DNA from: a bacterium
Lineage (GTDB): Bacteria > Bacteroidota > Ignavibacteria > UBA10030
NCBI GenBank assembly: GCA_007280275.1
Contig: QYQB01000072.1
Location: 1 to 33,889, forward strand
Direction: 5' to 3'
DNA: 33,889 nucleotides
Both the position numbers and the translations under genes were made by a program. Under the pieces are notes generated by a model, which saw only the letters and a list, made by a program, of their open reading frames with translations, was not told the origin of the DNA and ran no database searches. The first letter of the stretch is position 1; every line of letters starts with the position of its first letter. Of this stretch, positions 18,917 through 33,889 are shown one piece after another.

Positions 18917-21487
18917 TCAGAACTGAATAATGACCTGTTGATGGTTATCTGATCCAGCGAACTCCACCGCAGTTCTACGTACTGAACCCGGTGCCGGCGA
19001 AATCTCCGTGCCGTGAGCTGTGGTTCCATCGATCATGATGCGTGCGGGGGCGTTTTCACTGTCGATTACAAGCTGTGTCAGATGGCCGTTGAAGGACGAC
19101 AGGTCACAACGGATCTGCTTCTTCGCGCCGTCATAGAGTACAGAATGAATGATCGCGGTCGCACTGACCAGGACAGGAATTCGCGACGTAGTAGGCGTGA
19201 GCTCCCAGCGTTTCTTTGACCGGAGTTCCAACGGGATGATACGTGAGGGAATCACAACGCCATCGGCTGCCAATGCACATAATCCGCCCGGGAACCGGCG
19301 AACGTTGAGTTCCTTGAGGCCTGCGAATGAAAATGAACAGGCAATCGAATCGCATTGCGGCGGCAGAGCGTCCCTGATTCCGATATTCCATTCATTCTCG
19401 TCTGTTGCGAGAAGCCGGTAAAGGACCTGCAGATACATGCCCCCTGCCCACAGAAACGATGGCTTGTCAATTGTCCCAAATGAGGGGGAACCCGGATCGG
19501 AGCTGCGGTACTCATACATCGCAGGCAATCCGTTCGGGCTGCCGGCAACACCACCGATCGTCATCGTACGTTGGACGAAATCAAATGATTCTTTCAGCTT
19601 GTTGACATTCTTCAGCGCCATTGCATACCAGGCATTCCCGTGCGGCCACACTCCCCCGTTTGCATACGAGTATGCCGGTCCGGCCTCGGCGCCTGCGAAT
19701 TTGAAAGTCCGAACGACGGAGTCGGTGGCAAAATCAACCGGCACCGCAATGCGCGTTCCGATCTGCGGATCGACCAATCGCCTCGCGGCAGTAGCCACGA
19801 GCTTCTGCGCGTGCTCATCATCCAGCAGCCCATACACAGGAGCGATGAGTGATCCCGCGTAGAAATGATAGTCTTTTGTTCCCCCATTGAAATTTGTAAG
19901 ATATTCATCCTTGCGATCCCAGAGTTTCCCGACGAGTGCGTGCTGCATCGCATCAGCCGTCCGCTCATACTCCAGGAGCTCCGGACCGATCTTATGAAGG
20001 AAGGAAGAGATGAAGACATATTCTCTCAGGGCGCGGATTGCCAGGGCGGTAAGGTACGCCCGCGAGCCCTCAAGATGACCAATATCCCACCAATCGGGGC
20101 GGAAGGCGTACATAAGACCATCCGGATGAAGACGTGTCAACAATTCGTGGACGCTTTTCCTGAGATTCGGGTAAAGCGCCCGACCGGTCGAATCATCGAG
20201 TGAATGCCTCAGATAGCTTCCGGTGACCAGGATGAACCAGAGATGATTCCAGTTCTCCGGTTCACAGTATTCCGTCTTGAATCCATCGTCGCGCCAGTAG
20301 TATGCATGCGGTATCACGCTGTCCCTAGACAGCAACACGACATAGAGAAGGTTCTCCTTAACCCTGGGAAGATCAAAATTCACGGCGCCGAGATTCGTTA
20401 ACAAGAGGTCGTGGGTGAAAAAGAAATTGTATTCCGCCGGGCACGGCATCGGAACAATTCTCCCGCGCAGGTAATGGGCATTCGCTGCAATGAGGGCACG
20501 AGCCCAGACAGCGGAGCGGTCGATCTCTTTGTTCCCTGTGATGAACCGGGCTTCCCTCTGTGCCTTCATCCTGATGTAGGTATCATACGCCAGGGTTTCA
20601 TCTCTCCACTGAGCGCGGAGTCGCGCACTGCGCTGTTCGATCTCGGCTCCCCTGCAGCTACCGACAATCTGAACGACCTTCATCGAATCGGACGAATTGA
20701 GCGTCTTCTTGTACGTGAACGCTGCCACTCCGCGGCCACGACCCGATGATATTCCAGCGCGCGAATCCAGATTCATAGGCCACCGGGAGCTTCCGCTGTC
20801 CGTTGCCCCAAGCAGCTCGGCGTCAGACGTCCATCCGGCCGGACGTTCACCGACGTTTTGCACAAAGAGTGCAGCACTATCAGTATCAACATAGTTGAAC
20901 CGTGCAGAAAGCGTCTGCGTATCGGAATTGAAGGCAATCTCTGACGTGTCCCTGCGCCTGTAGGTCTGGCACGTTCTGAGGCTCATCAACAAATGTGTAT
21001 AGAGCTCAATTGCCACAGGTTGGCCGCTGACGTTCCTCACCACAATAGATGCGACCGCTGCCGGCTCGTTCAAACAGAATTCATACGAGACAGACCATTG
21101 AAGACCACCGGCGTTCTTCACAAATGTCACCTTGTGAGGGCTGAGGTGATACGACCAGGATTGGTTGTTGATCCATTCGGCTTTGCCGGTGCCAATCCGG
21201 AACCCAATCGCCCACGGGAGCGAGTTGTCCCGCTTCCAGTAGTCAGTGCTGACATCGATGCTGTTGGCTACCGGGTAGAAGAAGCTGATACGGGAAGGGA
21301 CCGGCCTGCTGTGATGAAATTCGAATCCCGCATACCTCCCCCCCACTTCAACCTGGCCCCGCTGACCATCGAAGAAATACGAGAGAGGGTCCTCTTTTGA
21401 ACGTTCTTCTTGTGCCTGAAGCGCGGTAACGTTCACGCTCCACATCAAAACCACGGCCACCCAACATGTCACACCATGCTTTTTCAT
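18917..21487 (-). CDS. Secreted six-hairpin glycosidase-like protein (debranching-enzyme/GH94-like fold)
   Basis: 856 residues with signal peptide (cleavage near LQAQ, 23-26). Three parts are visible: an N-terminal beta-sandwich (about 35-290), an (alpha/alpha)6 barrel (about 310-700) and a beta-rich C-terminus (about 715-856). Barrel motifs include FFFTHDLLLTNLG (354-366), FRPDWWDIGHLEGSRAYL (462-479), NGGVWPHGNAWYAMAL (610-625) and PSFLWAGGMYLQVLYRLL, in the style of GH15/GH63/GH94-type enzymes. D359, D465 and D468 are candidate catalytic acids. The exact family and linkage are not recognised. Its position between the importer permeases and the catabolic genes points to periplasmic trimming of oligosaccharides before ABC uptake. 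Confidence 0.78.
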   Translation of the reverse strand: MKKHGVTCWVAVVLMWSVNVTALQAQEERSKEDPLSYFFDGQRGQVEVGGRYAGFEFHHSRPVPSRISFFYPVANSIDVSTDYWKRDNSLPWAIGFRIGTGKAEWINNQSWSYHLSPHKVTFVKNAGGLQWSVSYEFCLNEPAAVASIVVRNVSGQPVAIELYTHLLMSLRTCQTYRRRDTSEIAFNSDTQTLSARFNYVDTDSAALFVQNVGERPAGWTSDAELLGATDSGSSRWPMNLDSRAGISSGRGRGVAAFTYKKTLNSSDSMKVVQIVGSCRGAEIEQRSARLRAQWRDETLAYDTYIRMKAQREARFITGNKEIDRSAVWARALIAANAHYLRGRIVPMPCPAEYNFFFTHDLLLTNLGAVNFDLPRVKENLLYVVLLSRDSVIPHAYYWRDDGFKTEYCEPENWNHLWFILVTGSYLRHSLDDSTGRALYPNLRKSVHELLTRLHPDGLMYAFRPDWWDIGHLEGSRAYLTALAIRALREYVFISSFLHKIGPELLEYERTADAMQHALVGKLWDRKDEYLTNFNGGTKDYHFYAGSLIAPVYGLLDDEHAQKLVATAARRLVDPQIGTRIAVPVDFATDSVVRTFKFAGAEAGPAYSYANGGVWPHGNAWYAMALKNVNKLKESFDFVQRTMTIGGVAGSPNGLPAMYEYRSSDPGSPSFGTIDKPSFLWAGGMYLQVLYRLLATDENEWNIGIRDALPPQCDSIACSFSFAGLKELNVRRFPGGLCALAADGVVIPSRIIPLELRSKKRWELTPTTSRIPVLVSATAIIHSVLYDGAKKQIRCDLSSFNGHLTQLVIDSENAPARIMIDGTTAHGTEISPAPGSVRRTAVEFAGSDNHQQVIIQF

Positions 21488-21510: not shown

Positions 21511-22320
21511 TTACCCCTTGATCCCCGCGGACGCCATGCTTTCGATGAAATATCTCTGGAAGAACGAGTAGGCGATGATGATTGGCAGGGCCAGCAGCGT
21601 TGCGGCCGCCAGCTGCAACCCAAGCAGAGACTCCGCTTCGCCTCCGATTGTGAAGAGCGTGACGAGTTGCGGCATCGTCATCAACGAGCGGTTACGCACC
21701 ACGATCAACGGCCACAGGACTTCATTCCAGCTTGACATAAACGTAAGCAATGACACGGTAATAACAACCGGCCGAGAAAGGGGCCATATCACCCGGAAGA
21801 GAATCCGGAGCTCCGAGCACCCATCGATCCGCGCAGCATCGATCAAAGCCTGGGGGATATAGATGAAGAACTGACGGAAGAGTATGATACTGAACGCCGT
21901 CATCAGCGTCGGCGCCACCAACGCTAAATACGTGTCCGTGATCCCGAGCTTGACCATCAGGATATACTGCGGTATGAGCGTTATCTGAAACGGTAATGTC
22001 ATCGTGAACACGACGACCGCGTAGAGAGCACCCCGTCCTTTGAACTGCAGGCGCGCAAGCGCGTAGCCCACCATGGACCCGAACACAATCACCGAGACTG
22101 TTGAAGAGAGGGAGACGATGATGCTGTTCAGGAAGGCCCTGCCGAGAGGAATACGCTCGAAAACCTGCGCATAGTTTGAAAGCGTAAAATGTGTGGACCA
22201 CAATCCGAACCCGCCGATGTCAGCCTCGGGCTTCAATGACGAAGTAATCATCCAAAGAAAGGGATACGCGAAAACGATGGCACCGAGACCCAGAGCGAGA
22301 TATTTGGCGGTCGCCTTCAT
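21511..22320 (-). CDS. Carbohydrate ABC transporter permease, MalG type
   Basis: 269 residues with six predicted membrane helices. The EAA loop that contacts the ATPase is present (PQALIDAARIDGCSELRILF), as are typical MalG-family segments (YPFLWMITSSLKP near the start and FMSSWNEVLWPLIVV). Its ATG overlaps the stop of the MalF-type gene by 4 nt (ATGA). It forms the inner-membrane channel with the 22317-23210 product. No ATP-binding subunit is encoded in the window, so a shared MsmX/UgpC-like ATPase elsewhere is expected. Confidence 0.93.
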   Translation of the reverse strand: MKATAKYLALGLGAIVFAYPFLWMITSSLKPEADIGGFGLWSTHFTLSNYAQVFERIPLGRAFLNSIIVSLSSTVSVIVFGSMVGYALARLQFKGRGALYAVVVFTMTLPFQITLIPQYILMVKLGITDTYLALVAPTLMTAFSIILFRQFFIYIPQALIDAARIDGCSELRILFRVIWPLSRPVVITVSLLTFMSSWNEVLWPLIVVRNRSLMTMPQLVTLFTIGGEAESLLGLQLAAATLLALPIIIAYSFFQRYFIESMASAGIKG

Positions 22321-23210
22321 GTCGTCGGCTCCGTCTCGATGACTTTTCGCTGCAGCAAGACCACCCCGAGGATGATCAGCGCGAAGACGAATCCAAGCGT
22401 CGCGGCATATCCCATGTGGTTGAAATAGAATGCCTGGTTATAAATATACAGGACTGCGGAAAGCGTGCTTTCCATCGGGCCGCCGCCGGTGAGGACATAC
22501 GGCTCCACGAACAGGGAGAATCCACCAATGGTTGAGAGCACCACAACGACCACGAAGGTCGGGCGCAACATTGGCAGCGTGATTCGGAAAAACTGACGGG
22601 CCCGCGTGGCTCCGTCGATGCTGGCAGATTCATACAGTTCACGGGGGACATCCTGCAATCCGACAAGGAACAGGATGATGTAGATTCCCACATTCTTCCA
22701 TGTCGCCATAAGCGCGATCGACAACATCGCCATATCGGGATCGATGAGCCACGGCACTCTGCCGATACCGACGGCTGAGAGCATACGGTTCAGCAAGCCC
22801 GAGTCGAACGCATACAACTGCTGCCATAAAATCGTCACTACGACGCCGGAAACAACAACGGGCAGGAAGAAGACCGCACGAAAGAATCCGCGACATTTCA
22901 GTTTTGAATTCAATAATACCGCGAGCCCCAGTGCAACGACCATCTGCAGCGGTATATGGATGAGCAGGAACTTCAGCGTATTGATAATCGCTTTGAAGAA
23001 GAGGGGATCGCTGAACAACCGCTCGAAGTTCTTGAGCCCGATCCACTCCATCGGTGTCACGACATTCCAGCGGTGAAACAGAAGCACGAACGAAAAGATA
23101 AGAGGATAGGCAACAAATCCTCCAAAGAAGACGGCGTACGGAAGGACAAACCAGTAGCCGGTTTTTGACTGCCGATGTCGTGGTGAATCGAACTTCCAGA
23201 GAGATGTCAT
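22317..23210 (-). CDS. Carbohydrate ABC transporter permease, MalF type
   Basis: 297 residues from the ATG at 23210, chosen because it overlaps the binding-protein stop as ATGA; a longer frame to 23294 would lie inside that gene and reads as non-native sequence. Six membrane helices are predicted, starting with YWFVLPYAVFFGGFVAYPL. The EAA loop is ELYESASIDGATRARQFF. It is the partner of the MalG-type permease and belongs to the CUT1 group, which imports oligosaccharides. Confidence 0.93.
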   Translation of the reverse strand: MTSLWKFDSPRHRQSKTGYWFVLPYAVFFGGFVAYPLIFSFVLLFHRWNVVTPMEWIGLKNFERLFSDPLFFKAIINTLKFLLIHIPLQMVVALGLAVLLNSKLKCRGFFRAVFFLPVVVSGVVVTILWQQLYAFDSGLLNRMLSAVGIGRVPWLIDPDMAMLSIALMATWKNVGIYIILFLVGLQDVPRELYESASIDGATRARQFFRITLPMLRPTFVVVVVLSTIGGFSLFVEPYVLTGGGPMESTLSAVLYIYNQAFYFNHMGYAATLGFVFALIILGVVLLQRKVIETEPTT

Positions 23211-24529
23211 TTGTTCCACTTGACAATCATCTGCGTTCTGCGGAACGCGCCATCGACCGCTTCGGCAGGCGTCACTTTTCCGTACACTGCGCACGATTCG
23301 TATACCTGTGAGATTGCATCGAGGATTTCTTTCAAGTCCGGCGCAGCATCCACGCCGCGGGTGGAGATGGCCTGTTCTGCGAACCGGACCATCTTCGGAT
23401 TCTGCCGGAAGTACTCCGAGAACAGATGATTCGTCAGCAAGTCCCCGCGGACAGGAACCTGATTTGTAATCGTCAACAACAAGAGATCGTGTTCCGCAAG
23501 CATAAGATACTTGACAAACTCCCAGGCCTCATGTGGATGCTTTGTCGTCCCGAAAACCCCGATGTTTTTGTAATCCCCGTAGGTGTATACCGGACCCGTA
23601 TGCCGATCGGGCACGGGCAACGGTGCAACATCGAAGCGGATGTGAGGCGCAAGCGAATGAAGCGTTGCAACTTCCCACGGTCCGGCAAAATGAGTTGCTT
23701 TCTTTTCAAGGAGGAACGGATCCCCCCCCTGGAAATACGTGTGAGGAAAGTAGTTCTCCATGTAACATTCCTGAAAGAACATGAATACACTTTTTGCATC
23801 CTCATCGTTGAAATCCGGCTCTCCAGCTTTGAAGAGGGTCTTCCCTCCGGATGCGGCGATATAGAACGGGTAAAAGTCGAACAATCGTTGCCACCAGATG
23901 GGACGTATATCCCGCTCGCCGGCCCACACATCGGTCTGTCCGTCGCCGTCGAGATCACGCGTCAGTTTCTTCGCGGCGGCAAAGAACTCGCTGTAGGTGC
24001 GTGGAGCCTTCGTTATACCCACTTCCTCGAACATGCGGACGTTGTAGAACATCATGACCGGATTCGTTTTCCACGGGATCTGATAAAAACGCCCGTTTTC
24101 GGACCGAAACGGTTCGAGAAGGTCATGAGGCGTTCGTGCAAGCGCAATGGAATCGAAGTCGGAGAACTGATCAAGGGCAATCAGTCCACCGGCACGCGTG
24201 TATTCATGCAAAGCCCCCGGCCAGATGTTCGAACAGACATCCGGCGTGGTCTTCCCCGCAATCGCAGCAAGCAGAACTTCTTCGGTCGACTGACTGACCG
24301 GAATGGACTGCATGCGAACCTGAATTCCGGGATGGGTCCTGTTCCATCGCCGGACCAGCGTGTCCGCAAGCTGCATCTCCTGAGGATTCGGGGCAGGCCA
24401 ATACGTCAACTCAACGACCTCACCGCTGCCGGAGCCTTGCGGGCTTTTTTGATTCGAGCAACCAGTCCACCACAAGAGCGTGCAGACAGAGATGACGAGC
24501 ATAATGCTTCTCACGATTCCGCGGCTCAT
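23207..24529 (-). CDS. Extracellular sugar-binding lipoprotein (ABC, family 1)
   Basis: 440 residues. A lipobox (LWWTGC, lipidated C24) ends the signal peptide. The mature protein is a family 1 solute-binding protein: VELTYWPAPNPQE, the RRWNRTHPGIQVRMQ helix, GKTTPDVCSNIWPG, and later HFAGPWEVATLHSLAP and KNIGVFGTTKHPHEAWEFVKYLM. It should capture an oligosaccharide in the periplasm and deliver it to the permeases encoded directly downstream. Ligand specificity cannot be read from the sequence, but gene context suggests mannose-containing oligosaccharides. Confidence 0.92.
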   Translation of the reverse strand: MSRGIVRSIMLVISVCTLLWWTGCSNQKSPQGSGSGEVVELTYWPAPNPQEMQLADTLVRRWNRTHPGIQVRMQSIPVSQSTEEVLLAAIAGKTTPDVCSNIWPGALHEYTRAGGLIALDQFSDFDSIALARTPHDLLEPFRSENGRFYQIPWKTNPVMMFYNVRMFEEVGITKAPRTYSEFFAAAKKLTRDLDGDGQTDVWAGERDIRPIWWQRLFDFYPFYIAASGGKTLFKAGEPDFNDEDAKSVFMFFQECYMENYFPHTYFQGGDPFLLEKKATHFAGPWEVATLHSLAPHIRFDVAPLPVPDRHTGPVYTYGDYKNIGVFGTTKHPHEAWEFVKYLMLAEHDLLLLTITNQVPVRGDLLTNHLFSEYFRQNPKMVRFAEQAISTRGVDAAPDLKEILDAISQVYESCAVYGKVTPAEAVDGAFRRTQMIVKWNK

Positions 24530-24559: not shown

Positions 24560-26173
24560 TCAGTTCCACGATTGCCAGTCATAATCGATTGTCGGAAAAG
24601 CGGTGCGCGGATAGATACCCCCTTTTTTGATTGTATACACATCGATGGCTTTCGGATCATTTTCGATGTCAATCACGACTTTCTTCAACGCGTCTTCATT
24701 GATCGCCACACCATAGTTCTGTTTCAGGCGAAGTATTTCATGAAGCAGTTTCTTTGTCAATTCGAATGACGAGTACTCTCTCCAAACGTCTTCGCGCACT
24801 TCATCAAACGGTTTAACTACCCCCGCAGTGTCGCAGAAGTTGCGGGCGTTCTCTTCGTAGTATTTTCGCAGAAGCGGAAGCGAGTCCTGGATGGTATCAG
24901 CGATGCGACCCTTGTTCGCAAGATAGAGAAATTTCTCTTTCCACCATTCCTTTTGCCGCCTGACACTCGTGCGATTCTGGAGTTTTCGCTCGAATGCCCG
25001 GTCCGTCAGCAACCGATCACGGACCATGCGCCAGATGATTCCTTCAACGGATTGGAAAAACCCTTGCTGCGATGTCAACGACAGCTTGATGTACGGTTCA
25101 CGCATCCGGTACCAATCGAGGAATGTCCGCAGATTCAGATTCTTGTTCTTCAACTGAACGAGTGCACGGGACTCGATCGTGTCCAGCCGCGAAACGTCCT
25201 TCAGTTCCCTGGCTCCTTTGCGGCCTGCCAGTTCCCACTCATCAAACTTCTCTTTACTCAGGAATTTTCTTCCAAGATACGCCTGAATGGCATTGAAGGT
25301 CTCGCGCACGATAACCGGATGCTGATCAACGATCATTCGTTGCACGTAATCATCGGAAAGTGAGTCAGCGAGGTGCTGACTCAGGCTACGCTTCACGTCC
25401 TCCCGCATTTTCACTTCCTCTGATTGCGTGACGATGGGGTTTTTCCAGGCGTCAGCCATCTTGACGATGTACCAACCGTCGGGACCATGAACAGGGAGCG
25501 ACACGGCGCCCGGTTGCATCGTGTCAATGATGGAAGCGAACATGGGATTCTGCATGCGAAGTTTGAATTTGGTGGTCTTGAGCGACCGGTCGTCGGGCTT
25601 TACTTCGCCCCGTAGCTGGGCGGCGTACAATGAGTCAAAGGACACTCCGGTTTTCATCATTCTCACTTGGGCATCAATCGCGGGAGCCGTCGGGGTGAAA
25701 ATCCATCGAACCGTGAGATGGACACGTTCCTGCTCAGTGCCGCGCGCAATCTGTCCGTCTCCCACCTTCACGTGAGGCAGGACATCCTCCTTGTAGAGTT
25801 CCTCAGTGGCAAGGTCGGCTTCAATTTCTTTAACCTGCCTCTGAAGGTCGGGCCATGAACCGAGGCCCCGGTCACGTCCATCCAAAGCGAGGAGCTTTTC
25901 ATAGGCCATGAAGGTCAGGTAGTGCTGCCTGGAGTCTCGTTCCCGCTTGACGAACGCAGGTCCGTATTCATAACTCAACATGAACTCGCCCGCGGAGATC
26001 GTCCAGGGACCAACCGTGGCCACCGTGATTCGGTCCAACCTCGGATCGAGGAGGGAAGAGTAAGAGGAGTATTCGCGGATGCGCTGGGAACGAGCGGGAG
26101 GAGCAAGTGCCACAATCAAGAGTACGAGAAGATAGGCACCTTGCCTCATTGAAGTGGCATTTCGACTCTTCAT
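24560..26173 (-). CDS. Periplasmic SurA/PpiC-like peptidyl-prolyl isomerase or chaperone
   Basis: 537 residues from the ATG at 26173, 4 bp after the PorV-family stop; the frame extends to 26242 but that part overlaps the previous gene. A second possible start is at 26149. A signal peptide follows (GAYLLVLLIVALAPPARSQ). A SurA-like N-terminal helical region leads to a parvulin-like segment (about 150-245: VRWIFTPT, GVSFDSLYAAQL, QPGAVSLPVHGPDGWYIVKMADAW), then a long helical C-terminus. Such proteins escort outer-membrane proteins across the periplasm. Lying between the outer-membrane genes and the importer genes, it may serve the local TonB receptor and secreted cargo. Isomerase activity is uncertain. 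Confidence 0.72.
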   Translation of the reverse strand: MKSRNATSMRQGAYLLVLLIVALAPPARSQRIREYSSYSSLLDPRLDRITVATVGPWTISAGEFMLSYEYGPAFVKRERDSRQHYLTFMAYEKLLALDGRDRGLGSWPDLQRQVKEIEADLATEELYKEDVLPHVKVGDGQIARGTEQERVHLTVRWIFTPTAPAIDAQVRMMKTGVSFDSLYAAQLRGEVKPDDRSLKTTKFKLRMQNPMFASIIDTMQPGAVSLPVHGPDGWYIVKMADAWKNPIVTQSEEVKMREDVKRSLSQHLADSLSDDYVQRMIVDQHPVIVRETFNAIQAYLGRKFLSKEKFDEWELAGRKGARELKDVSRLDTIESRALVQLKNKNLNLRTFLDWYRMREPYIKLSLTSQQGFFQSVEGIIWRMVRDRLLTDRAFERKLQNRTSVRRQKEWWKEKFLYLANKGRIADTIQDSLPLLRKYYEENARNFCDTAGVVKPFDEVREDVWREYSSFELTKKLLHEILRLKQNYGVAINEDALKKVVIDIENDPKAIDVYTIKKGGIYPRTAFPTIDYDWQSWN

Positions 26174-26177
26174 GATA

Positions 26178-27212
26178 TCAGAATCGGAGACCGACAGTGA
26201 ATACATGGACGCCCTGGAGACGCCCCATATCCTGGTAGGCATAGTCGACTCCTACCCGAATACTGCCGAGGAGATCAGCGGAGGACACTCCAAACCCGAA
26301 CGACATACCACCTTCGGCCTGATCAAGGAAGAGCGATTGATACCCGGCACGGAGAAACAGGTAATTTGAATAGACAAATTCCGTTCCGATGTTGAGACTT
26401 TCGTAGTTGTCGTTTGGATGGAGAGCGTCCACAGCAACGCTCCAGCGGTACTGGTTATTGTCAAAGATCCGCGTCGATACGCCAAATTGAAAAAGCAAGG
26501 GAAGGTCCCACGAATCAAGCTCAATGTTCGTGGCTATCTGGTCACTCGATCCCTGCTTGTTCGGGTCAAGGCGGATGAACTGACGTGTATCCCTTCCGGA
26601 CATTTTCATGGTTGTCCCGAAGTTCGAGAGCGACGCGCCAATCGTCATTCCGCCGAACAGATCCGTCTTGAACGTGGTCCCCAGATCGACGGCAAATGCG
26701 CTTGCGCTTTCGTGCCAGATCGATTGTTGAACGTACTTCGCCGTAACTCCAATTGCAAACCGTTCTGTAAGTTGCCGTGCGTAGGAAATACTGGCGGCGA
26801 GGTCACCAGCGCTGAAGAACTCGCCTGTCCCCTCCGGGAATTCGACCGTCCGGACCGCCATGTCTCCCATCGAGAGTGAGGTCAGGCTGAACCCAAGTGT
26901 GCCTGCGCTTCCCAGGGGTAATACTGCTCCGGCAAAATCGAACTTCGTATCAGCGATCCATCTGGTATGGACAACATCGATGGTCAACTCCGGAAGCGAT
27001 GCCACACCTGCCGGATTCCAATGAAGCGCTGTCGCGTTGTTGGCAACGCTTACGTAAGCGCCTCCCATCCCCATCGCCTGCGCTCCAACCCCAATCTCGA
27101 GGAATGTGGCCGCAGTTGTGCCGGACTTGGAAACGTTCTGGCTCCCGGTCTGACCATAAGCTGCGAGAACAGCCGAACCGTATACGAGGACGACAATGAG
27201 AAGTCTCTTCAT
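26178..27212 (-). CDS. PorV/PorQ-family outer-membrane beta-barrel protein
   Basis: 344 residues with signal peptide (about 1-20, cleavage at AAYGQ). The N-terminus of the mature protein carries the family hallmark GAQAMGMGGAYVSVANNATALHWNPAGVA (in part at residues 43-71), and the remainder alternates as beta strands ending in F (VHVFTVGLRF), as in FadL/PorV-like barrels. PorV is the T9SS shuttle that takes cargo from the translocon to the attachment complex. A copy in this locus, right after a large T9SS cargo gene, suggests a dedicated helper or a paralogue of the core PorV. Confidence 0.85.
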   Translation of the reverse strand: MKRLLIVVLVYGSAVLAAYGQTGSQNVSKSGTTAATFLEIGVGAQAMGMGGAYVSVANNATALHWNPAGVASLPELTIDVVHTRWIADTKFDFAGAVLPLGSAGTLGFSLTSLSMGDMAVRTVEFPEGTGEFFSAGDLAASISYARQLTERFAIGVTAKYVQQSIWHESASAFAVDLGTTFKTDLFGGMTIGASLSNFGTTMKMSGRDTRQFIRLDPNKQGSSDQIATNIELDSWDLPLLFQFGVSTRIFDNNQYRWSVAVDALHPNDNYESLNIGTEFVYSNYLFLRAGYQSLFLDQAEGGMSFGFGVSSADLLGSIRVGVDYAYQDMGRLQGVHVFTVGLRF

Positions 27213-27255: not shown

Positions 27256-30200
27256 TTATTTCAAGACAGCGAATTTACCAACTTGCGTTCCAAGGCCTGG
27301 AGCTTCGACATGGATGACATACACGCCAAACGCAATATTCATCCCATCGCGGGAAACCAGGTTCCACGGCTCTTGCCCATCATCGATCGTGCTGCTGTGC
27401 GTCAGCGTTTGAACGAGATGGCCGCTAATTGTATAGATCCGAATCGTGCATGACTGCGGCAAATGAATGAAGAACACTCGCCGCTCACCTCTGCCGACCG
27501 ATGTCGTTTGCGGTTCCCACGAAGCTGCTCCGACGTACGGGTTGGGAACCACCGCGACCTTGCTCAAATCATTTTGAGCCTTGGACAGGTCGAGCGTTCG
27601 CGCCTTCGAAGTAAATTCGAAGTACTCGCCGGTGCGGAACGGTTTCTTCGTCGAAATGCGGAACACATCACCTGGCTGAGGCTGTCGCTGCAACGGCGCC
27701 GGGATGAGTGTGTCCTGAAGAAGTGTCAACGACCAGCTCTTGCGCGCACTGAAGAACTGCGTCGCCGACTGCCCGGCGGAGTCTCCGGCCACAATGAAGA
27801 GCGCATCACCCGCGTCGAATACCGAGTTTCCGTTGATGTCCTGGAAAATGAACTGAACGTGGTCGATGTTTTCCGTCAGGTTCTTGATTATGATGTTCGA
27901 CGGCACCCCGGAGCTGAAACTCGATCCCGGAAATGAAGTGTCGCCTTGGTTCTTGGCAGTGAAACGAATCTCGAAATCTGCCGGATAATTGACACGGCGT
28001 GGTTGATATGCCGGAGCAAAACGTGAATCGAACCCGACCTGGGTTACGTAATTGCTGGTCCCTTTCGTCCATCCGGTCTTCGACGGATTGATAATGACGT
28101 CAGGATCATTCTTGATTGACGCGACGAATCCCCGGATTACCGGCGACTGGACCTGTGTGGAGAGAAGTCGCGTGAGCGAGACCAGCGTATCTTTCGCTGT
28201 CTTGTCCACGAGCCGGTACCATGGATACGAATTCGTATGGAAGGCCGTCGAATCAACGAACTCCATTCGATACGTGTGATTGTCCCTGATCGAATCGGCA
28301 TCGAGGACTGTCATATTCATTGATCCGGTCCCGGGACCGGTTGCTGTCAGGCTGCCGATCTCAGGCGGAATGTATCCCGCTGCTGCCGCGCGCGGCGTAA
28401 CGACAGCGGTATTGATGTCGGTCTTCACGCGGCCATTGATGTCGATCTTGATGATGCTCGTTGTCTCTGAAGGCGGTATTCCGACGAACTCTCCCGTCAC
28501 GGTGGTCGTCGTGAAGCCCTGGTCATAAGCGACAACCGCGTAATAGTACGTTTGTCCATTTGCGACGGTGCTATCGACAAACGAATGCTGCAACCCCGTA
28601 TCATCGCCAAGGTTGAAGTAGGCACCATTGACGCCGATGGGATGGAGTCCCTTGACCCCATCAATCAAGTCAAACTGGGCGATCGGCAGCCGATAGGTCG
28701 GCCGGCCGAATGCATCCGTGATGATCTTGTTCTCCAGGAAATTGGCTTCGGTGCTCCGGTAGATCCGGTATCCTTCAAAGTTGAATTTCTGATAGAATGC
28801 GTCGAACGTCAGTTCCGAACGCTTGTCCCAGTAGAGTGTGACACGATGGTCGCCCGGGATTACTTTCACGGTTGGTTTTTCTGGAGGTTTCGCGAAATGA
28901 TAGTTCGCGTTATAGATCTGCTGGACGGTCCGTTTGCGGCGGAAGAGATCGTCGGCGTTCATGCCGAAAATCAACGCCATCGAGAAGCGCTCAGTCTCCC
29001 CCGTTTGCTGAATCTGACCTGAGCGAACACTGTACGTGTTCCTTCCGAGCAAATGGAAGAGATAGCTCGAAAAATGATTAGCCAGGTTTACTCCGACCAG
29101 CGATTGCCCGTGCGGTTGGGGAAGGGCCGAAAGCGCTGACCAGTTTCGCTCGTCGTTATTCAAATCGTATGTGTGCACCGCGGAAATGACGAATCCCGTG
29201 AGGCCGAGCTGATCGGATTCATCCTTGTCAAGAATCCCGAAATTGGGTTCTCCCTGATCGGGCTTGCCGTTCCCTTCTGTACCGTCGGGATCGGGTCCGG
29301 GATACCCTTCATCGAATGGTCCGAGTCCATCCGTTCCTACATCGTCATTGAGGGGCTCGCCTGCATCCCATTTACCGTTGCCGTCTAGATCGGTGAAAGG
29401 ACGCCAGTTGCAATTCTCATCGGCATCCCAATGTGGCCTCCATGCGTATCCATAGAACTTTCTGAAGCGGGCCGTGTCTTGTTGTACATCCCGAAGGAAT
29501 GGATCTTTGAACGGATCCGTGATGAAGGTATGCACAATATTGTCTCGACGTTCATCGGTCAAACCATCGTGATCGTTGTCGAAATTGTCGTCGGCAATGC
29601 CCGGGCTTTCAAGAAAGGCGTAGCCGGCATAGCCAACGGGACTCCAGTTGCCGGGACTTCCAAATGCCACGGCGGACCACGCATAGGAAAGGTTCAGCTC
29701 TTCATTGTAGTCACCGGCATTGTTGGAAGAATTATCGTGTCCCCCGATGCCCCAATCGACGTATTGAGCAAACAGCGTCTTCGTATAGTCCGTCGTTCCC
29801 ATGCTCGTAATCTCGTACAACCAGAAAATCACGTCCTCTGCAAGAACCTGCGACCACTGGAATCCCCTTGCATGGACTTGCATCCCCAGTCCGCCCCGCG
29901 TTGTATCATCCGCGTCCGGATGGAAATTGTTCTTGAGCATGTATTCACGGTCTTCATTGTCATCGAAAACAAAGTATGTTTCGAGATCGGCATTCTGGAC
30001 ACCGTTACCGAAGAACCCATTCCATCGCTGGTTCCAGTCGGCCGGGCGATCGGGCCAGGTAGGAGGCCATGTATTGGGATCCGTGCTTTGTGCGGGGCTC
30101 GATTGAAAACGATTCGCGTAATTTGGCAGCGACCACCAGCCGTACGTCACTCCGGTGCCGACATCATGGCGTGTGTATTCATAGTAGTTTGTTTCGAGCG

Positions 30201-30507
30201 GGTGAAAAATGTTCCCCTTGGCATCCTTTGTCTCTGCCTGCACGATCACTGCCACACCATCTACGTAGGTGTGATTCGTTCCCTTTGGCCAGACGCCGCT
30301 CCGGCTCGGATCGTTCTGCCAATCCGCGATCTCACCGAAATTGTAGTACACCGTGGAAACGAGGTTGCCATCCATGAGTCCTTTCTTTGTCTCGTTGTGG
30401 TTCCCTTTGCCCTTGTCTATGAGTCGTTGAGCGGAAAGAAAACCAGTCGACGCGACAAGAAGACTCGCTGCCAGGAGGAAACGCACGTGAAGCGATGTTC
30501 GGATCAT
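27256..30507 (-). CDS. Large T9SS-exported surface protein, possible partner of the TonB receptor
   Basis: 1083 residues from the ATG at 30507 (GGAG 7 nt upstream); the frame extends to 30549 but that overlaps the receptor gene. Signal peptide 1-26. Residues 30-540 are aromatic- and Asp-rich with no family I recognise; they include calcium-binding-like acidic repeats (DDNFDNDHDGLTDE near 306 and DLDGNGKWDAGEP near 373, then further D/G/E-rich turns to 428). A fibronectin III-like region covers about 543-690 (FEGYRIYRSTEANF). The last 90 residues are a T9SS-like sorting domain (VVPNPYVG, then FGVYVIHV and GKFAVLK). It sits where SusD would normally be, directly after the TonB receptor, so a surface glycan-binding role is plausible. 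Confidence 0.8.
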   Translation of the reverse strand: MIRTSLHVRFLLAASLLVASTGFLSAQRLIDKGKGNHNETKKGLMDGNLVSTVYYNFGEIADWQNDPSRSGVWPKGTNHTYVDGVAVIVQAETKDAKGNIFHPLETNYYEYTRHDVGTGVTYGWWSLPNYANRFQSSPAQSTDPNTWPPTWPDRPADWNQRWNGFFGNGVQNADLETYFVFDDNEDREYMLKNNFHPDADDTTRGGLGMQVHARGFQWSQVLAEDVIFWLYEITSMGTTDYTKTLFAQYVDWGIGGHDNSSNNAGDYNEELNLSYAWSAVAFGSPGNWSPVGYAGYAFLESPGIADDNFDNDHDGLTDERRDNIVHTFITDPFKDPFLRDVQQDTARFRKFYGYAWRPHWDADENCNWRPFTDLDGNGKWDAGEPLNDDVGTDGLGPFDEGYPGPDPDGTEGNGKPDQGEPNFGILDKDESDQLGLTGFVISAVHTYDLNNDERNWSALSALPQPHGQSLVGVNLANHFSSYLFHLLGRNTYSVRSGQIQQTGETERFSMALIFGMNADDLFRRKRTVQQIYNANYHFAKPPEKPTVKVIPGDHRVTLYWDKRSELTFDAFYQKFNFEGYRIYRSTEANFLENKIITDAFGRPTYRLPIAQFDLIDGVKGLHPIGVNGAYFNLGDDTGLQHSFVDSTVANGQTYYYAVVAYDQGFTTTTVTGEFVGIPPSETTSIIKIDINGRVKTDINTAVVTPRAAAAGYIPPEIGSLTATGPGTGSMNMTVLDADSIRDNHTYRMEFVDSTAFHTNSYPWYRLVDKTAKDTLVSLTRLLSTQVQSPVIRGFVASIKNDPDVIINPSKTGWTKGTSNYVTQVGFDSRFAPAYQPRRVNYPADFEIRFTAKNQGDTSFPGSSFSSGVPSNIIIKNLTENIDHVQFIFQDINGNSVFDAGDALFIVAGDSAGQSATQFFSARKSWSLTLLQDTLIPAPLQRQPQPGDVFRISTKKPFRTGEYFEFTSKARTLDLSKAQNDLSKVAVVPNPYVGAASWEPQTTSVGRGERRVFFIHLPQSCTIRIYTISGHLVQTLTHSSTIDDGQEPWNLVSRDGMNIAFGVYVIHVEAPGLGTQVGKFAVLK

Positions 30508-30529: not shown

Positions 30530-33211
30530 CTAGAAGGATACCAATGCACCGAAAACGACCTGTCGGGGCGAAGAGTAAAAGTCAGGTCTCATAAAGAACT
30601 CCTGCAATGTGTTCACGCCTCTGGGCGCCTGCTGCGCCCGTGTGAGTTCAAGCGAATAGCCTGCGCGGCCTGTGTCAGTGAAAATGTTGACTTCGGCAGG
30701 AGTGTCGAAAACATTGTAGATTTTCAGGAATAAAGAAAATTGGTGATCAAGCCACCGGACGTACTTCGTCAGATAGAAATCGGCGTTGAAAAACATAGGC
30801 CGGTTGTCGCTGTTCTCCAATCCTGTGCGTTGGTTCTGGAAGGAAGGCGAGTACGGCAGGCCGGATCCGAGACGTGCGATGAGGCTGCCGATAATATTAT
30901 CCGGTTCGCCGGCCGTCAATGTCAGGTTCAGAGAATGGCGACGGTCCCAGTCCAGCGGGACAAGCTCCTTGTTGATTTCGATCGGCGGACTCGCCTGCTG
31001 CTTGTTGAAGTTGTCGTTGGGATCCGAAGCGTTCCCGAATGCGGTCTGGTATGTATAATCCACCGTGCCACCGAAACCGCCGCTGAATCGCTTGTCGAGC
31101 GACACTGTGAACCCTTTCACAGCGCCATAATCCCGGTTGATGTACTGTCCAAACTTCTTGAAATCATTCTTGATGTACAGTTCCATACCGAGGAGGTTGC
31201 GGATATCCTTGTAGTAGGTGGTGACAGTGATGCCGAGGAACGGAGTGAGTTCCTGTTGAAGGCCGAGTTCGTACATCGTCGTTCGTTGGGGCTGAAGATC
31301 TGCATTGCCAATTGCGTTCCCGACGAACTCCGGGAAGTTGCCGGTGAGCGGGATACGGAAATTCGGATTCTTGTAAAGGAACTCAAACGGGGGAACCTGA
31401 AAGAAATGGCCGTAAGAGAAGTGAATCGCGCCGCGATCGGTTATCGGGTACGAGATGCCGATACGGGGACTCAGCTGATATTTGCCGCTCGCTTGTGAAG
31501 TAAGCGAATCGGGAAAAGGAGGCACCAATTGATCGAGGGCAGCAATGTTGTTCGGATTCTTCAACACCCTTCCGTCGGGTTGAAAGTAGTCGAACCTCAT
31601 TCCAACGTTGACAATCAAATAATCGAGCTCGATCTTGTCCTGTGCGTATGCGGCGAACTGATACGGATGGTTTGTATAGACGTTGTAATCGAAATCTCCC
31701 ACATTCGGCAAGGCCGGTTTGAATCCGCTGCTCGCATCGACATGGATCTGGTAGTCCTCGTAATTGAGCCTGTGGTATTGCACCTCAACGCCGGTCTTGA
31801 CGAGGTGCGCAGAAGTTAATTGCGACGTGAAGTCGATTTTTCCCGTGTAGCTGTTGGATTGATGAGCGAAATGCCAGTTCTGTGTTCCTCCCGTGAGAAA
31901 CGCGTTACCGCTGACATCCTGCATCCTTTGCGGATTCACATAGCGCGGATCGAGCGGGTTCTCGTATACATATTGCTTGTAGCTCGATACGATCGTTGAA
32001 GCGTTGAAATCGACAAACGAGGAAGGACCGAACACATAATTGTAACTTACGATTCCAAGGAAGCTCTTCTGAAATCTTGTATAGTCTCCATCAGGATCGA
32101 GCTGGAATTGGTGATCGTAGGTCTTATACTGATGGTCCTGGTACAATCCCTCGAGCACAATCCCCTTTGAAGAGCCGACATTGATTGAGAGCTTTCCTTG
32201 CGCGCTCCATCTCGTATCATAATTCATCGGAACATATTTCCCGTCGCCTGTTGCGCCGATATGCCACTGCGATGGATCGTTCGCGGAGAAATTCGACGAG
32301 TCAGATGGATTGAACACGCGTTTGCCGTAGAGGTAACCGTCATCATGGAAGTACCTGCCTGATACGAAGAACTTCACCAACGACGGAATTCCAGGCATGG
32401 GACCGCTGAGCGATCCCTCGTAATTGCGCAAATAGGTGGGTGAAATATGATTGAGATTTTGGTAGAGATCCGTGCGAGCTGTAAGATAGCCGCCGGTATA
32501 AGCAGAGACCTGTCCTGTGTACCTGTCACCGGCAATCTTGGTGACCTGATTGACAACACCCGAGAGCGCTTCGCCGAATTCAGCATTGAACGTGCCGCTG
32601 AGAACCTGAATCTCCTGAATGCTGTTCACCTCAGGCTCCAACGCAGAGGACCCCGAAAATACATCGTTCACGGAGAGACCGTCTACAAGATACTTGACCT
32701 CGCCTGTCCGGCCTCCTCGAAAGTGCCCTTCCACTACCCCTGCCTGCAGGTTGACAACAGACGAGACAGTTTCGAGCGGAAGTTTCGAAATCTGATCGCT
32801 GTTGACCGTCGATGTGGTCGATGTAAGGTCTTTTTGGACAATCGGGCGGGATGCAATGACCGTCACCGCCGTCATCTCGACCGCCTGGTCCCGCAACTCG
32901 ATATCTACTTTGGTCGTCTTGTCAACAGACACCGAGACGTCCTCCACCACGGAAGCTACATAGCCGACCATCGTCGCTTTGAGTTGATACTTCCCCGGTG
33001 GGACATTGATGATGAAGTATGTGCCACTTTCGTCAGCCGAGGCACCCATCATCGTGCCAACAATGACAACATTGACACCGATCAGCGGTTCTTTCGTCCT
33101 CGCGTCAACGATTTTCCCCGCAATTTTGCCCGTCGTGCCTGCATACCCATCGCACACGAGCAGCCCCAGCCCAACAAGCAAGCACAACAATGGACGTCGA
33201 AAGACGTTCAT
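30530..33211 (-). CDS. TonB-dependent outer-membrane receptor with carboxypeptidase-regulatory-like domain
   Basis: 893 residues from the ATG at 33211, which has GGAG 7 nt upstream; the frame extends to 33292 only through the terminator. Signal peptide about 1-24. A CarboxypepD_reg-like Ig domain follows (about 25-110: GKIAGKIVDARTKEPLIGVNV, GTYFIINVPPGKYQL), then the TonB plug (about 115-235: GGRTGEVKYLVDGLSVND, FNAEFGEALSGVVNQVTK) and a 22-strand-type barrel ending in VVFGALVSF. The plug and the extra N-terminal domain resemble SusC-like receptors. It is likely to take up oligosaccharides across the outer membrane and is the first gene of the locus after the terminator. No SusD gene follows. 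Confidence 0.92.
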   Translation of the reverse strand: MNVFRRPLLCLLVGLGLLVCDGYAGTTGKIAGKIVDARTKEPLIGVNVVIVGTMMGASADESGTYFIINVPPGKYQLKATMVGYVASVVEDVSVSVDKTTKVDIELRDQAVEMTAVTVIASRPIVQKDLTSTTSTVNSDQISKLPLETVSSVVNLQAGVVEGHFRGGRTGEVKYLVDGLSVNDVFSGSSALEPEVNSIQEIQVLSGTFNAEFGEALSGVVNQVTKIAGDRYTGQVSAYTGGYLTARTDLYQNLNHISPTYLRNYEGSLSGPMPGIPSLVKFFVSGRYFHDDGYLYGKRVFNPSDSSNFSANDPSQWHIGATGDGKYVPMNYDTRWSAQGKLSINVGSSKGIVLEGLYQDHQYKTYDHQFQLDPDGDYTRFQKSFLGIVSYNYVFGPSSFVDFNASTIVSSYKQYVYENPLDPRYVNPQRMQDVSGNAFLTGGTQNWHFAHQSNSYTGKIDFTSQLTSAHLVKTGVEVQYHRLNYEDYQIHVDASSGFKPALPNVGDFDYNVYTNHPYQFAAYAQDKIELDYLIVNVGMRFDYFQPDGRVLKNPNNIAALDQLVPPFPDSLTSQASGKYQLSPRIGISYPITDRGAIHFSYGHFFQVPPFEFLYKNPNFRIPLTGNFPEFVGNAIGNADLQPQRTTMYELGLQQELTPFLGITVTTYYKDIRNLLGMELYIKNDFKKFGQYINRDYGAVKGFTVSLDKRFSGGFGGTVDYTYQTAFGNASDPNDNFNKQQASPPIEINKELVPLDWDRRHSLNLTLTAGEPDNIIGSLIARLGSGLPYSPSFQNQRTGLENSDNRPMFFNADFYLTKYVRWLDHQFSLFLKIYNVFDTPAEVNIFTDTGRAGYSLELTRAQQAPRGVNTLQEFFMRPDFYSSPRQVVFGALVSF

Positions 33212-33288: not shown

Positions 33289-33889
33289 TCACTTCAACAT
33301 GAGCATCTTCTTTACGAGTGCAATCGATCCGGTTTCCAGGCGGTAGATATAGACACCGGATTCGACCGTACGCCCTGCTTCATCCTTTCCATCCCATGTC
33401 ACGGTGTATTGACCCGCAGCATGGACACCCTGCACGAGTGTACGAACGCTCTGGCCCAGTATGTTGTAAACGACGAGCGAGATGTTCTGCTCGTGAGGCA
33501 CGGCGAATTGTATCTTCGTTGAAGGATTGAATGGGTTTGGATAGTTGTACGAAAGGTCAAAGACGTTCGGAATATTACTGTTATTGCCGCTCACAGCAGT
33601 AGTCGTCCCGACTTTTTGCACGGTGAGATCGTCAAAGTAGACTGTTCCCACAAACGTCGAATACACATGCAACCGTGTCTCAAGCGCCTTTACCCCCACT
33701 CCCGTCGGCACTTGCACATCGAGTGTATACTCTGTCCAGTCAAATGACGTCACCTTCGGGAATGTAAACGTGTAGTCATTCCCGGGTCCAACAGTGTTAT
33801 ACCCGTCATTGTTGCCAAACTTCGCAAACCACAACGGCGTAAATCCGACCGACCATGTCCCCGGATACTTTGCAGCTGAGTCTGGAACC
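33289..33889 (-). CDS. C-terminal part of a secreted T9SS cargo protein
   Basis: The frame is open to the window edge, so only the last 199 residues are seen. Residues to about 105 form a carbohydrate-binding-module-like jelly-roll piece (EYTLDVQVPTGVGVKALETR, then TVYFDDLTVQ), a type often attached to secreted glycosidases. The end is a T9SS sorting domain (YNYPNPFNPSTKIQF, LVVYNILGQSVRTL, SGVYIYRLETG). It may be another extracellular enzyme of the same locus, lying just upstream of the terminator. Confidence 0.85.
   Translation of the reverse strand, partial: VPDSAAKYPGTWSVGFTPLWFAKFGNNDGYNTVGPGNDYTFTFPKVTSFDWTEYTLDVQVPTGVGVKALETRLHVYSTFVGTVYFDDLTVQKVGTTTAVSGNNSNIPNVFDLSYNYPNPFNPSTKIQFAVPHEQNISLVVYNILGQSVRTLVQGVHAAGQYTVTWDGKDEAGRTVESGVYIYRLETGSIALVKKMLMLK

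Follow-up and report, generated by a model that had tools for sequence, protein, structure and literature searches.

In the 33,889-nucleotide stretch of bacterial DNA analyzed here (the window), a protein of 1083 residues is encoded between a TonB-dependent receptor and a barrel of the PorV/PorQ family. The best reading of these genes is a three-gene uptake module, composed of a TonB receptor, a protein exported by the type IX secretion system (T9SS), and a dedicated PorV paralog. We consider it fairly probable that the 1083-residue protein is a T9SS-exported ligand-capture partner of the receptor that is held by the PorV paralog; the complex, the ligand, and the retention are what we infer. 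The PorV paralog belongs to the unit and probably serves as its anchor. Support from sequences and models covers the gene order, the class of the C-terminal tail, the fold of the N-domain, the SusD-free loci, and the receptor and PorV clades, and the conserved gene order indicates shared function rather than contact. The position between a TonB transporter and a PorV-like barrel, often amid sugar-degrading genes, points to a probable role in nutrient capture, mostly of glycans, comparable to that of SusD in gut Bacteroides but with T9SS delivery to the surface in place of a lipid tail.

Under this reading, a large family now annotated as “hypothetical protein,” including the Rhodothermus marinus member WP_144295523.1, acquires a likely function. 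The family is widespread and is accessible in the cultivated Rhodothermus marinus DSM 4252. The module also suggests a polymer import route for bacteria in which SusD genes are scarce or absent and makes the use of T9SS-exported lids by TonB receptors directly testable.

The 1083-residue protein and its neighbors

The gene (27256-30507, minus strand) is an open reading frame of a conserved family and encodes a putative T9SS-type surface partner protein. Its start codon, an ATG served by a GGAG ribosome-binding site, lies 22 nt past the stop of the TonB receptor, and the gene ends 43 nt before the PorV/PorQ-family gene. The encoded Sec signal peptide (30430-30507, minus strand) has a predicted cleavage between FLSA and QRLI. 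Its signal region contains no cysteine, so the protein is not a lipoprotein and lacks the lipidated N-terminal Cys of the SusD type; a lipobox scan of 80 homologs returned three lipobox-like strings, all within signal peptides. No Pfam family matched the protein at E<=0.1, and a sequence search of the PDB gave no match for the protein or its family.

AlphaFold2 produced a confident model of the whole mature protein (pLDDT 87). As Foldseek matches to this whole model were mainly to FN3 domains and of little use, the N-domain was folded separately (pLDDT 89.8, pTM 0.87). When the Foldseek candidates for the N-domain were re-compared, nearly all of the matches listed were carbohydrate-active enzymes, among them dextran dextrinase (Z 20.1), a bacterial glucoamylase (18.9), laminaribiose phosphorylase (18.1), and GH116 and GH94 enzymes (about 17 each); overall, the comparison with the GH94/GH15/GH116 supersandwich gave Z of 14-20 across about 210-270 residues. 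In these models, the N-terminal half (mature residues 1-516; 28882-30429, minus strand) appears to have the beta-supersandwich fold of GH94/GH15/GH116 enzymes minus their catalytic barrel. The N-terminal supersandwich is common to those enzymes and our protein, whereas the (alpha/alpha)6 catalytic barrel is absent from the model, in which just FN3-like and other beta regions lie past residue 514; an acidic insert, an FN3-like region, and a T9SS tail are in turn extra in our protein.

The acidic insert, an Asp-rich, Ca-loop-like insertion in the N-domain (mature residues about 276-410; 29200-29604, minus strand), was delimited from alignments, in which many family-invariant residues fall within it. 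It looks like calcium-binding loops and may bind calcium. The FN3-like region has approximate boundaries (28450-28881, minus strand) drawn from the strand pattern of the model and the whole-model Foldseek matches. The sequence-only reading of this DNA had described an aromatic-rich N-terminal half, calcium-binding-like acidic repeats, and a fibronectin-like region, and all of these were found in the protein, the first half of which is rich in Trp and Tyr. It had also assigned a T9SS tail. A C-terminal domain (CTD) resembling that of PorZ is indeed present (27259-27564, minus strand; Z 12.0 over 87 residues, 29% identity), but it is a divergent, type-A-like CTD of what we call the module class: TIGR04183 scores 13.4 bits on the tail, under the type A cut-off of 23, and the tail profile PF18962 has no match in the protein, which places it outside type A cargo. 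With a Sec signal and an Ig-like CTD, in a genome that encodes both SprA and PorU, the protein is, on sequence grounds, a candidate T9SS cargo in the wide sense, for which T9SS-dependent secretion is predicted.

The placement of the gene after a TonB receptor and before a PorV-family gene was confirmed. The receptor (30530-33211, minus strand) has CarboxypepD_reg, Plug, and barrel domains and belongs to a module clade rather than to SusC. The PorV/PorQ-family barrel paralog, the proposed dedicated shuttle and anchor (26178-27212, minus strand), scores 210 bits on NF033709 (cut-off 90) and 79 bits on the PorV equivalog NF033710, below its cut-off of 250, and falls in our tree outside the PorU-linked housekeeping PorV clade. 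On the other side of the receptor, the contig end cuts a T9SS cargo gene of which the C-terminal part remains, including a canonical type A tail (33289-33888, minus strand; TIGR04183 40.6 bits).

Beyond the PorV gene, and overlapping it, lies a gene for a PPIC-type peptidyl-prolyl isomerase-like protein (24560-26242, minus strand; PF13145). The T9SS translocon also includes a PPI subunit. The isomerase-like gene comes after PorV in most close orthologous loci, and we left it out of the core module because it is present behind PorV in many loci, not all. Further genes on the minus strand encode the extracellular solute-binding protein of a sugar-type ABC transporter (23207-24529; PF01547), two sugar-type ABC permeases (22317-23294 and 21511-22320; PF00528, GlcT/UgpA-like), and an 856-aa GH94/GDE_C-like protein (18917-21487). 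The last is a probable glycoside phosphorylase or hydrolase with weak matches (24 bits on PF17167, below its cut-off of 27, and 24 bits on PF06202, above its cut-off of 21), possibly of a divergent glycoside phosphorylase family.

Gene order, tail class, and genomic setting

Relatives of the protein are abundant: of 61 genomes surveyed from within the same order or closer, 59 have matches, some of them tail-only, and many have multiple full-length paralogs. In 60 regions that we read, receptor, cargo, and PorV are encoded in this order and on the same strand in all but a few cases, as far as the contigs extend. Across 80 named loci in Ignavibacteriota, Kryptonia, KSB1, Calditrichota, Neomarinimicrobiota, WOR-3, Rhodothermota, and Gemmatimonadota, the receptor is directly upstream in 78/82 and PorV directly downstream in 76/82, the remainder being mostly contig ends. 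Since both sets were ranked by similarity, we took a wider sample: 118 genomes of the phylum were searched with an N-domain profile, 47 of them giving a match, and 40 regions were read, weak members included. Both neighbors were present in 35/41; two of the other cases were at a contig end, two had an extra ORF between receptor and cargo, and two were true exceptions. A homolog survey, as the sequence-only reading had proposed, thus found relatives consistently beside TonB receptors in loci without SusD; neither a match to an unrelated known family nor a pattern of homologs away from receptors was seen.

The association follows the class of the tail. Where a single next gene was visible, PorV came directly after 172/177 proteins with a module tail and after 0/210 with a canonical type A tail, and a TonB receptor was directly upstream of 170/181 and 0/185, respectively, in loci chosen around the family and with a motif-seeded canonical set, so that these counts are not population frequencies. 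The contrast between tail classes is too large for chance, and chance adjacency was rejected on the PorV counts. The class of the tail predicts PorV. A tree of the tails parts module from canonical ones fully (support 100/99), again for family-centered loci and a motif-seeded canonical set.

The two true exceptions of the wider sample are a natural tail swap. They are encoded in tandem at L303 (6464-8479 and 8481-10547, minus strand), have the same supersandwich N-domain and no receptor or PorV nearby, and carry ordinary type A tails (PF18962, 41 and 47 bits). A full-length homolog with a module tail at L125 (10004-13258, plus strand) adjoins neither receptor nor PorV; module receptors lie on other contigs of that genome. 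At L299, the genes are ordered PorV, 946-aa cargo, PorV, 1325-aa cargo, receptor, i.e., two cargo-PorV pairs and one receptor, which suggests that one receptor can have two partners.

Among 44 genes scanned directly upstream of the receptor, 33 encode a T9SS tail, 16 a CBM9, and 5 a CBM4_9. Genes downstream include GH16, GH3, GH9, GH94, a putative glucoamylase (PF10091), and sugar-binding proteins; in the window, the sugar-type ABC transporter and the GH94-like protein come after the module. These carbohydrate-binding, glycoside hydrolase, and sugar-transport neighbors indicate that glycan uptake is the commonest setting. On plasmid pRMAR01 of Rhodothermus marinus DSM 4252, the neighbors of a module (L321, 5612-15286; RMAR_RS14120-RS14110) are a peptidoglycan recognition protein and a serine hydrolase; plant or algal glycans are thus not the target of every module.

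Relation to SusC-SusD and alternative roles

The sequence-only reading took the receptor to be of the SusC type, paired with a possible non-homologous replacement of SusD. It did not bring out that the PorV paralog belongs to the unit as its probable anchor, or the carbohydrate-enzyme fold modeled for the N-domain. The first part did not hold. On TIGR04056 the receptor scores 50 bits, at the N-terminus only, against a cut-off of 368, and in a quick receptor tree the module receptors group together (support 94; 98 for those paired with the family of our protein), with SusC (100) and the genome’s remaining receptors (99) in separate groups. On this score and tree, a SusC-type receptor was ruled out. 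A non-SusD, non-lipidated T9SS-type surface protein does consistently occupy the receptor’s partner position across many phyla in SusD-free loci, but replacement of SusD is not supported: the genome of the window also encodes a true SusC-SusD pair at another place, which makes the TonB-cargo-PorV unit a parallel module. SusCD and the T9SS-partner module coexist in genomes. A SusCDE starch operon has been described in Melioribacter roseus (PMC3534657). SusD (PF07980) was detected in 18 of the 61 genomes, typically adjoining true SusC genes, and the other 43 were without it; none of the 27 SusD matches in these genomes shares a contig with a listed full-length family member. A SusD profile of our own, small and with the positive control as part of it, found none in the module loci.

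The shared gene position next to a TonB receptor could also mean that the protein is itself a remote SusD homolog whose sequence has drifted. SusD has a helical TPR fold, while our confident models show a beta-rich supersandwich with few helices; there is, moreover, no SusD profile match and no lipobox, and the receptor is not SusC. The fold model already contradicts SusD homology, and together with the profile and lipobox results it leads us to reject this reading, the probability of which is negligible.

The chief rival reading is that the protein works as an enzyme at the surface, where, as a new glycoside hydrolase or lyase of the supersandwich type, it would cut glycans by the receptor instead of acting as a binding lid. 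We regard it as unlikely, though with points in its favor: a supersandwich-type hydrolase, GH174 (9k1g, Z 14.5), is among the N-domain matches, polysaccharide lyases are among the structure matches, and the family has invariant acidic and Arg residues (E150, D157, R188). However, the closest matches listed are the N-domains of enzymes that carry out catalysis in a distinct helical barrel, which our protein lacks. Strict pairing with a TonB-dependent receptor and a private PorV would be unusual for an enzyme, and the glycoside hydrolases of the same loci have ordinary tails and no PorV. Rather improbable, in our view, is an arrangement in which PorV is an export shuttle only, the receptor is a co-regulated neighbor, and the cargo is an LPS-attached autonomous adhesin or glycan-binding protein. 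PorV does hand known type A cargo over to the attachment complex (PMC9143113), and gene order is explicable by shared regulation; yet no canonical cargo in these loci comes with a PorV of its own (0/210), and a module-clade receptor is adjacent in 170/181 cases across phyla.

Proposed mechanism, precedents, and PorV expansion

For a ligand-capture partner held by its own PorV paralog, we propose that the cargo would be made with a Sec signal and cross the outer membrane via the T9SS translocon, its divergent CTD being collected on the cognate PorV-like barrel encoded alongside. It would presumably stay there uncleaved, like PorZ on PorQ, with the supersandwich N-domain positioned over or beside the TonB receptor, where it may form a physical complex and act like a lid. 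The N-domain could capture oligosaccharide, the likely substrate, freed by neighboring surface glycosidases and CBM proteins, and pass it on to the receptor, which would import it in a TonB-driven manner; the remaining steps would fall to the ABC transporter and the GH94-like enzyme.

Published precedents cover each of these steps separately; the parts are of known kinds, and the combination is not known from the open literature searched. PorZ is a T9SS component and is not known to be a partner of a TonB receptor. It keeps its CTD and stays attached to PorQ (PMC10202324) and is likewise a CTD-bearing surface protein on a PorV-like barrel, with a CTD that the tail of our protein matches. Type B CTD proteins have cognate PorP/SprF barrels, private FadL-type shuttles on which they are anchored (PMC12618676, PMC9143113); as in the module, these barrels are often encoded beside the cargo, whereas the module tail is type-A-like and its barrel PorV/PorQ-like. 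The structure of the T9SS includes a CTD-PorV contact in the translocon (PMC10994853), and BamG, a FadL-family barrel, supports an extracellular canopy (PMC12611786). BtuG on BtuB demonstrates that a non-SusD protein can be the lid of a TonB receptor (PMC10404256); unlike our protein, BtuG is a lipidated beta-propeller and has neither a T9SS tail nor a PorV. The SusC-SusD/RagAB pedal-bin likewise combines a TonB receptor with an extracellular partner encoded beside it, in glycan loci that also contain glycoside hydrolases and CBMs, but the module receptor belongs to another clade, and its partner is a T9SS-type, non-lipidated beta-supersandwich protein with a private PorV. For the phyla considered here, searches of open literature yielded no description of multiple PorV paralogs, of PorV with TonB receptors, or of T9SS with SusD.

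Type A CTDs are described as all being recognized by a single PorV (PMC12618676), and the many tail-PorV pairs reported here suggest that the arrangement outside Flavobacterium differs from this one-PorV rule. Genomes of the order hold about 9-36 PorV-family matches each, numbers that one-PorV secretion leaves unexplained and that the module would account for. A wider proposal, to which we give even chances, is that much of the FCB group outside the classical Bacteroidia has an additional class of TonB-dependent nutrient import, with an extracellular lid that T9SS exports and its own PorV paralog fixes in place, that type A-like CTDs diversified along with many private PorVs, and that PorV expansion marks substrate-specific uptake modules, not general secretion.

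The genome of the window has 14 PorV-family genes above the cut-off and nine complete modules (on contigs C244, C70, C103, C129, C171, C245, C32, C327, and C52), with partial modules on C251, C5, C336, and C219. Profile comparisons show that this genome includes module cargos with clearly shorter and different N-terminal parts but the same tail class, each lying between receptor and PorV. The PorV adjacent to the sortase PorU forms its own clade (support 99), apart from module PorVs, in a tree in which some deep forks are weak. Two of the genome’s modules have an extra PorV-like protein, a second, longer one with weak scores (29-36 bits) encoded directly behind the module PorV (L246, 7380-8909, plus strand; L249, 144-1760, minus strand).
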